From Armatimonadota bacterium (GTDB lineage: Bacteria; Armatimonadota; Chthonomonadetes; Chthonomonadales; CAJBBX01): a DNA stretch of 64,000 nucleotides. The position numbers and the translations under genes are program-made. Every line of letters starts with the position of its first letter. Within the stretch, counting starts at the first letter, position 1. The stretch spans positions 1 through 64,000 of the forward strand of contig JAPLCQ010000071.1 in NCBI GenBank assembly GCA_026392115.1, in the 5' to 3' direction. The notes beneath the pieces are model-generated. The model was not told the DNA's origin. It worked only from the letters and a program-made list of their open reading frames with translations, and searched no databases. This document shows, piece after piece, positions 1,579-13,865 of the stretch.

Positions 1579-1648
1579 GCCCACAGACTCGGGCGCGGAG
1601 GCCCGAGCCACCGACAGCGGCAGCGGCTGCGGTGGGGGGCGCGTCTCC

Positions 1649-5020: not shown

Positions 5021-5115
5021 GGCGGTTCACCTCCGGTGGCCGGGCTTCGCGCCCGATGATGCACCATTCGCCGCCCATGGCGCGGTGTCCTGCACAGAGC
5101 GTGGCGCCTCGTGCA

Positions 5116-5586
5116 TCACGGATGCTCGCGGAGCAGGGCCCTAAGCCGGCCGACACACGCGGGCAGGTCGCCGAGCACCTCGCACTCCCAAAGGACGACT
5201 ATGCGATAGCCCTGCGCCGAGAGCTGTTCTGCAACGTAGCGGTCTCGAGCCTGGTTGGCGGCTATCTTCTCCGTCCAGTAACTGACGTTTGTCTTTGGAA
5301 TCCTGCCCCTTCCACATGACTGACAGCCGTGCCAGTAGCACCCGTGGATGAACACGGCCACCTTGTACCTGGAGAACACCATGTCGGGCCGACCGATCAC
5401 GAGCCGGCTGTGTACCCGATAGCCCCGCATGCCGGCCGCCCAGGCCGCCCGGCGGACCAGCATCTCTATCGACGTGTCCCGGCTCTTGTTGGACCGCATC
5501 GACTTGCGGGTTCCCTCGGCCACGATGAACGTCTCGCGCCTGTCGCGCCGCGGGTAGCGGTACGGTCTGTCCTCGACGCCGCTCAT
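5116..5586 (-). CDS. vsr: Very short patch repair (Vsr) DNA mismatch endonuclease
   Basis: The protein has 156 residues. Family landmarks appear in order: RKSMRSNKSRDTSIEMLVRR at the N-side, GRPDMVF with the metal-binding Asp, VFIHGCYWHGC with the zinc-site Cys/His, YWTEKIAANQARD, and VVLWECEVL near the end. Vsr nicks next to T:G mismatches made when 5-methylcytosine deaminates, protecting methylated sites from mutation. It is divergent from the C5-methyltransferase at 5711, the usual pairing. A TTG start at 5655 would add 23 poorly conserved residues; ATG 5586 with GAGGGG upstream is preferred. Base composition here is visibly less GC-rich than in the glycosidase genes, fitting acquisition by transfer. 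Confidence 0.9.
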   Translation of the reverse strand: MSGVEDRPYRYPRRDRRETFIVAEGTRKSMRSNKSRDTSIEMLVRRAAWAAGMRGYRVHSRLVIGRPDMVFSRYKVAVFIHGCYWHGCQSCGRGRIPKTNVSYWTEKIAANQARDRYVAEQLSAQGYRIVVLWECEVLGDLPACVGRLRALLREHP

Positions 5587-5670
5587 CTCGGATTTCCCCT
5601 CACGATCGGCATCATGGCGTCCCTCCGCACGTTGCCTCGGAGGCCTGGAGTACAAGCTGGCCGGCAGGGG

Positions 5671-5676
5671 TAAACT
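5671..5676 (+). promoter_or_regulatory. Possible -10 box (TAAACT) of the methyltransferase
   Basis: TAAACT lies 34 bases before the methyltransferase ATG in the 124-bp divergent gap shared with vsr. The same hexamer recurs at 7811 before the symporter gene. No convincing -35 was seen. Confidence 0.35.
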
Positions 5677-5710
5677 GTCTCAATCCTGTTCTCCAAGCCG
5701 GAGCGTCGCC

Positions 5711-6898
5711 ATGGCGGACCGCCGCTTCGCCTCAATCGAACTCTTCTCCGGAGCCGGCGGGTTGGCCCTTGGCGCGACCCGCGCCGGCTTTCGGCACGCC
5801 GCTCTGGTTGAGTATAACGCCAGCGCCTGCAAGACCTTGCGTCTGAACGCGGGCCACGGCTGTCAGGAGTGTGGCGACTGGCGCGTAGTCGAGGCCGATG
5901 TCCGTGACTATGACTTTTCATCGCTCGGACAGGGCCTCGATCTGGTCGCCGGCGGCCCTCCCTGCCAGCCGTTCTCGCTTGGCGGCAAGCACCGCGGCCC
6001 GACGGACGCGCGCGATATGTTCCCCGAGGCGGTTCGCGCCGTCCGCACCCTGAGGCCGAAGTGCTTCCTGTTCGAGAACGTAAAGGGACTGCTCAGGCAG
6101 TCGTTCACATCCTACTTCTCGTATGTGCTGCTCCAACTGACCTACCCGGAGGTCGGTCCGAAGGCCGGCGAGGCATGGACCGATCACCTCACACGGTTGG
6201 AGCGGCTTCACACCGGCGGTTCGGAGCCTGACTTGTCGTACCGGGTGGTGTTCAGGTTACTCAACGCGGCTGACTTTGGGGTGCCCCAGCATCGGCACCG
6301 CGTGTTCCTGGTAGGCTTCCGCAGCGACCTCGGGCGCGAGTGGTCATTCCCGGCGCCAACCCACTCACTCGATGCATTGCTCTGGTCGCAATACGTCTCC
6401 GGTACGTACTGGGATGAACACAGGGTGGCCACCAGCGACAGGGCTCCATGCGAGGAACGATATCTGGCCCGCGTGCGCGATCTGATCCATGGCGGGCAAC
6501 CGGTCGAACCGCAGACTGAACGCTACCGGACGGTGCGCGATGCCCTGGTCGGGTTGCCACACCCACAGGATGCCGGCGCGGACCGTGTACCCAACCACCT
6601 GTTCCGATCCGGCGCCAGAAGCTACGCGGGCCATACCGGCAGTCCGTTGGATGAACCGGCCAAGGCGGTCAAGGCCGGCGACCACGGGGTGCCGGGCGGC
6701 GAGAACATGCTGCGCCTACACTCGGGTGGGGTGCGTTACCTCGCCGTCAGGGAGAGCGCGCGAGTACAGACTTTTCCTGACGACTACCTGATATACGGAT
6801 CATGGACCGAGGCCATGCGCCAGATCGGCAACGCCGTGCCGGCCCAACTCGCCCACAGGGTTGCTGAGACCGTGGCCCGGCAGTTGGCCGCCACATGA
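5711..6898 (+). CDS. DNA (cytosine-5-)-methyltransferase, Eco29kI-type R-M system
   Basis: The protein has 395 residues and shows the C5-methyltransferase motifs in order: I (ELFSGAGGLALG, SAM binding, residues 9-20), IV with the catalytic Cys in GGPPCQPFSLGG (about 83-94), VI (LFENVKGLL), VIII (PQHRHRVFLVGF) and X (RQIGNAVPAQLA near 380). The target-recognition region lies between VIII and X. It transfers a methyl group from SAM to cytosine C5. Its stop overlaps the start of the Eco29kI-like endonuclease (ATGA), so both form one R-M operon, with vsr diverging. If it follows the Eco29kI family the site is CCGCGG, but that specificity is inferred from the neighbour, not read from the protein. 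Confidence 0.92.
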   Translation: MADRRFASIELFSGAGGLALGATRAGFRHAALVEYNASACKTLRLNAGHGCQECGDWRVVEADVRDYDFSSLGQGLDLVAGGPPCQPFSLGGKHRGPTDARDMFPEAVRAVRTLRPKCFLFENVKGLLRQSFTSYFSYVLLQLTYPEVGPKAGEAWTDHLTRLERLHTGGSEPDLSYRVVFRLLNAADFGVPQHRHRVFLVGFRSDLGREWSFPAPTHSLDALLWSQYVSGTYWDEHRVATSDRAPCEERYLARVRDLIHGGQPVEPQTERYRTVRDALVGLPHPQDAGADRVPNHLFRSGARSYAGHTGSPLDEPAKAVKAGDHGVPGGENMLRLHSGGVRYLAVRESARVQTFPDDYLIYGSWTEAMRQIGNAVPAQLAHRVAETVARQLAAT

Positions 6899-7565
6899 GC
6901 GCCGTGCCGCGGCCGACGCCGTTCAACCCTCTAGACAAGCGCCAACTGGGGGACAGCGTGGCCGATGCTCTGCTTACGCAGCCTGTGTGCGCGGTCCCGC
7001 CCGCCCCCTTCATCGGCGCCGGCGTGTATGCAATCTACTACGGGGATCGTTCCCGTCGTATGAGCGCCTGGCCGCCCAGAACCGAGACGACCGGTTCGGG
7101 GCGCCGATCTACATCGGCAAGGCGATCCCGGCGGGCGCGCGCAAGGGTGGCCTCGGCTTGGATGTCGATGCCGGGCAGGTCCTGCAACGCCGGCTCAGCG
7201 AGCACGCGGAGTCGATCAGACAAGCCGACAATCTGAAACTGGAAGACTTCTCGTGCAGATTCCTTGTTGTGGAGGATATATGGATTCCATTGGCGGAGTC
7301 GATGCTCATTGAGCGATTCCGGCCCATGTGGAACGTCATGATCGACGGCTTCGGCAACCATGACCCAGGGCGCGGTCGCCGACGCCAGCGCCGTTCTCAG
7401 TGGGACGAGTTACATCCCGGCCGACCTTGGGCACGGCAACTCCTGGAGCAGATGCCCGAGCAATCAGAACGCGTCCGGGAACAGCTTGCCGCCTATAACG
7501 CCGGCGAGCGGGATGCCGACCTGGACGCGGCGACGGAGGCGGGCCTCACGGTCGACCGCGGTTGA
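6895..7565 (+). pseudogene. Eco29kI-like GIY-YIG restriction endonuclease, frameshifted
   Basis: Two frames together encode one Eco29kI-like protein of about 223 residues. The first frame runs from ATG 6895 through FNPLDKRQLGDSVADALL and GVYAIYYG (the GIY half). The second picks up at GSFPSYERLAAQ, then PIYIGKAIPAGARKG (the YIG half), RLSEHAESI, a glutamate-bearing WIPLAESMLIERFRP, then WNVMIDGFGNHDPG and a QRRSQWDELHPGR tail. The break is at the GGGG run 7042-7045: one extra G would restore a continuous reading frame. It is therefore a one-base loss, either a real inactivating or phase-varying mutation or a homopolymer error in the assembly. The methyltransferase upstream is intact, as expected if cutting were lost. 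Confidence 0.85.
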
Positions 7566-7838
7566 AACTTACGAACTCGACGGCGCCATGGTTGTCGGAA
7601 CGGAACCGAAGACGACACGAAGACGCCCAACAGCCGAGTCGCTGTCCATCACGCGCCTTGATGTCACCGGACTCGTAAGGATCGACGCCGTCGGGCGCCA
7701 TGACCTCGGGCGCCTGTGCCGCATCGCGTCCAGCTCTGCGCCGGTTGCGCCGGCCGGGAGCCCCTGGGCCGGCGATTCCGCGGCACGCGCCGATGTCGCC
7801 GCCTGCTCGGTAAACTCTACGGCAGGAGAGCGGCCACC
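7566..7838 (+). promoter_or_regulatory. Leader and possible promoter of the symporter operon
   Basis: This 273-bp gap has no supported gene. Near its end a TAAACT -10-like hexamer (7811-7816) precedes a GGAG ribosome site (7824-7827) and the symporter ATG at 7839. If this is the promoter, the leader is very short. Confidence 0.35.
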
Positions 7839-13134: not shown

Positions 13135-13401
13135 ATGGGACAGGCAACCGTAGTCCGAACACTCGAGATGGCGCGGCGGCTGAGCGTTGGGGAACTGCGC
13201 GAGGTGGAGCAGGGCCTCAGGCGGATGCTGGCGTCGGCGCAGCAGGAGGCCGGTGAGGCTGAGCGGCTCGATGCCGCGCTTATCGGCGCCGGTCTGGTCG
13301 CCAAGGTCCCGAGCGTATCACCAACCGAGCGGCGTGACCGGCCCCTGGCGTCGATCAAGGGTGCGCCCCTATCACAGACGGTAGTCGAGGACCGGCGATA
13401 G
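13135..13401 (+). CDS. Putative antitoxin of a PIN-domain toxin
   Basis: This small protein has 88 residues, is charged and rich in Arg, Glu and Ala, with a helical N-half and a disordered-looking C-terminus that could thread into a toxin. I do not recognise a named antitoxin family. The call rests on position: its TAG stop shares a base with the GTG start of a PIN-domain toxin, the tight overlap normal for vapBC pairs. By analogy it would bind and silence the toxin and repress the shared promoter. Confidence 0.6.
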   Translation: MGQATVVRTLEMARRLSVGELREVEQGLRRMLASAQQEAGEAERLDAALIGAGLVAKVPSVSPTERRDRPLASIKGAPLSQTVVEDRR

Positions 13402-13865
13402 TGGTGTCGTATTTCATCGACACAAGCGCCCTCGCCAAGCGCTACATATCAGAAACCGGTTCAGACTGGCTCCGTGCAACACTCGAACCGGCCACAGGCT
13501 GTCGAGCGCTGATCGCCAGAGCTACATCAGTGGAGCTGGTGTCGGCCATCACGCGACGCGAACGCGCGGGCGCGCTGACTGCGGTTGACGCTGCGGGCGC
13601 CCGCGGGGAATTCGTTCGCGACCTCGCGGATGAGGACATGGTAGTGGAGTTCGGCGAGCCTGTCGCCATGGAGGCGATGCGGCTGGCCGAGTGCCACGCC
13701 CTGCGCGGGTACGACGCGATCCAGCTTGCGTCGGCGCTTGCGGTCAACCGGGCGGCCGTCGGCGCTGGGCTGCATCCCGTGGTCCTCGTCTCGAGTGATG
13801 CGGACCTGAACGCGGCCGCACGACGCGAGGGCGTGTCGGTCGAGGACCCCAACCTGTACTCCTGA
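13401..13865 (+). CDS. VapC-like PIN-domain toxin (ribonuclease)
   Basis: The protein has 154 residues. The PIN acidic residues are visible: D7 in YFIDTSALAKRY, E45 in TSVELVSAI, D105 in GYDAIQLASAL and D133 in VSSDADLN. These bind Mg2+ for RNA cleavage. The N-terminal IDTSALAKRYISETGSDWL pattern is typical of the VapC subgroup. It overlaps the upstream antitoxin by one base. A second start (GTG 13404) is possible. A stable hairpin follows 15 bases after the stop. Confidence 0.85.
   Translation: MVSYFIDTSALAKRYISETGSDWLRATLEPATGCRALIARATSVELVSAITRRERAGALTAVDAAGARGEFVRDLADEDMVVEFGEPVAMEAMRLAECHALRGYDAIQLASALAVNRAAVGAGLHPVVLVSSDADLNAAARREGVSVEDPNLYS

Follow-up and report, generated by a model that had tools for sequence, protein, structure and literature searches.

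The locus raises the question whether a restriction endonuclease gene that is split over two reading frames is broken in the cell or only in the assembly, and what kind of event broke it. The window, which is the whole analysed stretch of 64,000 nucleotides (64 kb) from an Armatimonadota bacterium, carries GGGG at positions 7042-7045 (+ strand), and at this site the endonuclease gene changes frame. The ORF from ATG 6895 encodes MSAVPRPTPFNPLDK...GAGVYAIYYG and continues with 63 unrelated residues before it stops at 7236. The other frame, which is -1 relative to the first (ORF 6861-7565, GSFPSYERLAAQN...), reads from 7044 as GSFPSYERL... to the stop at 7565. In the two ORF translations we thus saw the same pair of segments, GVYAIYYG in one frame and GSFPSYERL in the next, that the first-pass annotation had reported. 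The 5' part of the gene (6895-7043, + strand), delimited by ORFs, profile search and codon pattern, includes the N-terminus and the GIY motif (GVYAIYYG), and the 3' part (7044-7565, + strand) includes the YIG motif and the active-site R, H, E and N. G+C per codon position was 0.69/0.51/0.82 before the break, a coding pattern in the ATG 6895 frame, and 0.72/0.46/0.77 after it, a coding pattern in the other frame. Considering that the codon pattern switches at the same point and that homology is found on both sides, the break is beyond chance.

In the Eco29kI family exactly one residue separates the tyrosine pair from the next glycine, and the endonuclease gene is therefore exactly one base below the family length, with the short codon at the GGGG. 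ORFs, the match to PF09517 on read-through and the codon-pattern switch all support the single-base frame break in an Eco29kI-like endonuclease that had been proposed for this position. Gain or loss of a whole codon was rejected, since the family length demands one base. The second frame read from TTG 6861 was also rejected as the true gene, its first part showing neither homology nor the catalytic tyrosine and having the wrong codon pattern.

With the break bridged by one unknown residue, the protein matched PF09517 (RE_Eco29kI) at 2.5e-64 and 216.5 bits over profile positions 2-162 of 164, where the curated cut-off is 30.8 bits. The second part alone matched at 1.7e-58 and 197.5 bits from profile position 14, and for the first half alone no Pfam match was found. 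The read-through protein also matched the solved R.Eco29kI structure 3mx4 (about 1e-39). The active-site residues of R.Eco29kI are Y49, Y76, R104, H108, E142 and N154, and activity is 0% in the mutants Y49A, H108F and E142A (PMC1952068). All six are present at the aligned positions here but split over two frames, the GIY tyrosine in the first and the other catalytic residues in the second, so neither frame can encode the enzyme. As assembled, the nuclease domain is not covered by any single uninterrupted frame, and the gene is, judged from its sequence, probably a broken member of the Eco29kI family (pseudogene) without a working enzyme.

The endonuclease gene belongs to a Vsr-methyltransferase-endonuclease (V-M-R) cassette of about 2.7 kb, delimited by collinear blocks and G+C at 5104-7786. 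Directly adjacent to the endonuclease gene is its cognate partner of a Type II restriction-modification system, an intact M.Eco29kI-like C5-cytosine DNA methyltransferase gene (5711-6898, + strand, 395 aa; PF00145, 7.7e-57), the stop of which overlaps the endonuclease start (ATGA, start 6895). Upstream of the methyltransferase and divergent from it lies an intact Vsr mismatch endonuclease gene (5116-5655, - strand, exact start codon uncertain), which matched PF03852 at 1.7e-23 and TIGR00632 (vsr) at 1.7e-36, above the cut-off of the latter. The methyltransferase shares 49% identity over 389 columns with M.Eco29kI of pECO29 and 57-64% with the methyltransferases beside relatives of the window endonuclease. 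The source genome contains six C5 methyltransferases in all, and two further C5 methyltransferase genes, at 13645-15623 of contig C29 and 40498-41934 of contig C168 (G000:C29:13645-15623 and G000:C168:40498-41934), each have a Vsr gene near them.

Both genomes of the same genus have an empty site in place of the cassette. Collinearity with the first congener (G001) stops at window position 5103 and resumes at 7787, with 35 bp between; with the second (G002) it stops at 5095 and resumes at 7791, with 46 bp between. The genes flanking the cassette are collinear in both genomes, with 89-93% DNA identity. G+C of the cassette is 65.5% vs 70.7% in the window. Because the site is empty in both congeners and the G+C is lower, the cassette is most simply read as a horizontally acquired foreign insertion; we found no direct repeat flanking both of its ends. 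The whole V-M-R cassette, absent from the congeners, was thus probably acquired recently, a point that the first-pass annotation had missed. Its target is presumed by homology to be CCGCGG. The observed/expected ratio of CCGCGG was 0.79 here and 0.76 in the congeners without the cassette, so the site is not especially avoided; avoidance was discarded as a clock for the acquisition, the site being equally frequent in the congeners. Collinearity with the two congeners also stops near window positions 1642-1648, 13079 and 15713, so species of the genus differ in this region in more than the cassette. At 13135-13865 a PIN-domain gene (PF01850) comes right after a small ORF without Pfam match, a layout like that of VapBC toxin-antitoxin pairs.

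We compared the gene with 120 relatives from genome and viral collections. The nuclease domain was spanned in one frame in 119 of these, the remaining one (L129) being a fragment at its match, and a frame break at the position of the window was found in none of the 120; the relatives were kept by score, so that the sample favours intact genes. A C5 methyltransferase is near the endonuclease in 112 relatives and directly 5' of it in 107, and Vsr accompanies it in 59; the gene order of the cassette is therefore standard. In some relatives (L050, L091 and L102) we also observed, a few hundred bases past the endonuclease, another GIY-YIG-like match that is more distant (26-32% identity). Among the 291 genomes of the phylum that were searched, 12 have a PF09517 member above the cut-off, and three of the 12 genes are broken, all in draft genomes: the window gene, one with another frame break (G158) and one with a truncation (G198). 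In G158 (L008, contig C174, 1413-1530) one extra base lies just before the GIY motif, between PPPRF and GCGVYAIYY. In G198 (L010, contig C75, 1489-1887) the endonuclease lacks the GIY and YIG half and is joined to other sequence. These two cases indicate that loss recurs in the Eco29kI family.

Apart from the frame break, no further damage was seen in the endonuclease gene. In an alignment to 107 non-identical relatives, mismatches were found at none of the 49 columns with at least 95% conservation, which means that the break is recent or an artefact, and the recent age suggested earlier holds with this same proviso. With about 107 non-synonymous sites unchanged, the neutral divergence since the break would be bounded at about 3%.

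The most serious alternative is an error in the assembly or its consensus, or mixed strains merged into one consensus, by which the gene would be intact in most or all cells as part of an ordinary working restriction-modification system. The source genome is a draft of 181 contigs with 98.6% completeness and is on that account probably metagenome-assembled, the sequence around the site is rich in G+C, and the lack of a second lesion, all 49 highly conserved columns being unchanged, would be expected of an artefact no less than of a recent loss. As a control we compared congener ORFs with stretches of the source genome. Among 94 comparable ORFs 89 were unbroken and five were flagged, three with stops only and two with a change of frame; twelve further ORFs were partial, eight of those at stretch ends. 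The assembly is therefore not riddled with frameshifts, which gives a low prior for error in any one gene, but the two frame changes are without explanation and the control covered only about 50,000 residues. The run at the break is, moreover, only four bases long, and the endonuclease gene also holds two runs of five bases which are both in frame. An error of this kind seems to us possible but rather doubtful, and it is the second choice after a real deletion.

The earlier view of the GGGG as a slippage site does not fare well. G or C runs of at least four bases number 489 in the 64-kb window (7.6 per kb), and the two longer runs in the same gene stay in frame; the GGGG may equally be the product of the deletion and not its cause. 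Nor does one added G appear to restore the original state: it would encode glycine at the damaged codon, and glycine was found there in none of 104 relatives, which have T (45), V (16), I (9), K, S, A and others. The same observations bear on phase variation, in which slippage of the G run would turn the endonuclease on and off. There is a homopolymer at the break, and phase-variable restriction-modification genes are known. However, work on H. pylori (PMC3936762) expects reversible switching once a tract exceeds about 8 bp, vs four here, runs of comparable length are common throughout the window, and the supposed "on" state would carry the glycine that all 104 relatives lack. Neither the endonuclease gene nor the break site contains a tandem repeat, and neither the long homopolymer nor the tandem repeat of a phase-variable gene was found. 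Phase variation, one of the possibilities first raised, is thus very improbable.

Programmed ribosomal frameshifting, in which a -1 shift would give a low level of full-length enzyme and delay restriction after entry into a new host, is less probable still. The second frame is indeed -1 to the first and the body of the enzyme is fully conserved, but the site reads C TAC GGG GAT, with no slippery heptamer X XXY YYZ, and the RNA downstream is not unusually structured (fold z = -1.0); neither the heptamer nor the stimulatory structure was found, and the relatives, the one fragment apart, are encoded in one frame. Equally improbable is that pieces of the endonuclease are kept for another role, such as a DNA-binding fragment made by restart in the second frame, which is open and conserved with in-frame TTG 7158 and ATG 7302, since the conservation is inherited from the intact ancestor, such a fragment occurs at this position in none of the relatives, and we noticed no clear ribosome-binding site ahead of either codon.

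We therefore favour, as fairly likely, an acquired Vsr-M-R cassette, with CCGCGG as target by homology, in which a recent deletion removed one base of the endonuclease gene, close to where the nuclease domain begins. The deletion would then be real in the cell and the cutting activity lost. Translation would start at the stop-start overlap with the methyltransferase, run through about 50 family residues and end 63 out-of-frame residues later. The truncated product would keep the GIY tyrosine and lack all other catalytic residues. Restarts in the second frame are possible at TTG 7158 (the first) and ATG 7302, and since both tyrosine motifs lie upstream, their products would lack both. With most catalytic residues missing from the one product and both motifs from the others, the endonuclease would be off, and the methyltransferase and Vsr could persist as a solitary pair for modification and mismatch repair.

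Comparison with known systems places the locus among relatives of the Eco29kI system of pECO29 (R.Eco29kI structures 3mx4 and 3nic), with which it has in common the GIY-YIG family PF09517, the same active-site residues, the related methyltransferase and the overlap of start and stop codons between the two genes (PMC3039593). In Eco29kI, R precedes M, whereas the window has M then R; only in the window does a frame break divide the endonuclease gene, and the window has a Vsr gene, while the two genes annotated on pECO29 include none. The Vsr-M-R cassettes of relatives such as L014, L023 and L025 have the same adjacency and the M-then-R order, with endonucleases about 63-66% and methyltransferases 62-64% identical to those of the window, and unlike in the window their endonuclease is intact. 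The G158 gene belongs to the same phylum and family and also has a single-base break, just before the GIY motif, but at a different position and by an extra base instead of a missing one; its downstream methyltransferase-like ORF, by motif reading only, is on the opposite strand and of another kind. Orphan methyltransferases with a degraded endonuclease gene next to them have been described before (Seshasayee et al., as cited in PMC6471742). The window has the same intact methyltransferase beside a degraded endonuclease, and compared with the decayed systems as cited there, its decay is a single event without further erosion.

Considering the probably recent entry of the cassette, we might tentatively speculate that it is being disarmed, the loss of one base having removed a self-poisoning endonuclease soon after transfer, with the methylation mark and Vsr kept. 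The case is ordinary in kind, the loss of the endonuclease being a common fate of such genes. Inventories of defence systems in draft genomes that count gene presence will include broken systems. For this organism, the locus would be one more restriction-modification cassette that the congeners lack and that probably entered recently and was then left without its cutting enzyme, and such cases bear on the origin of solitary methyltransferases.
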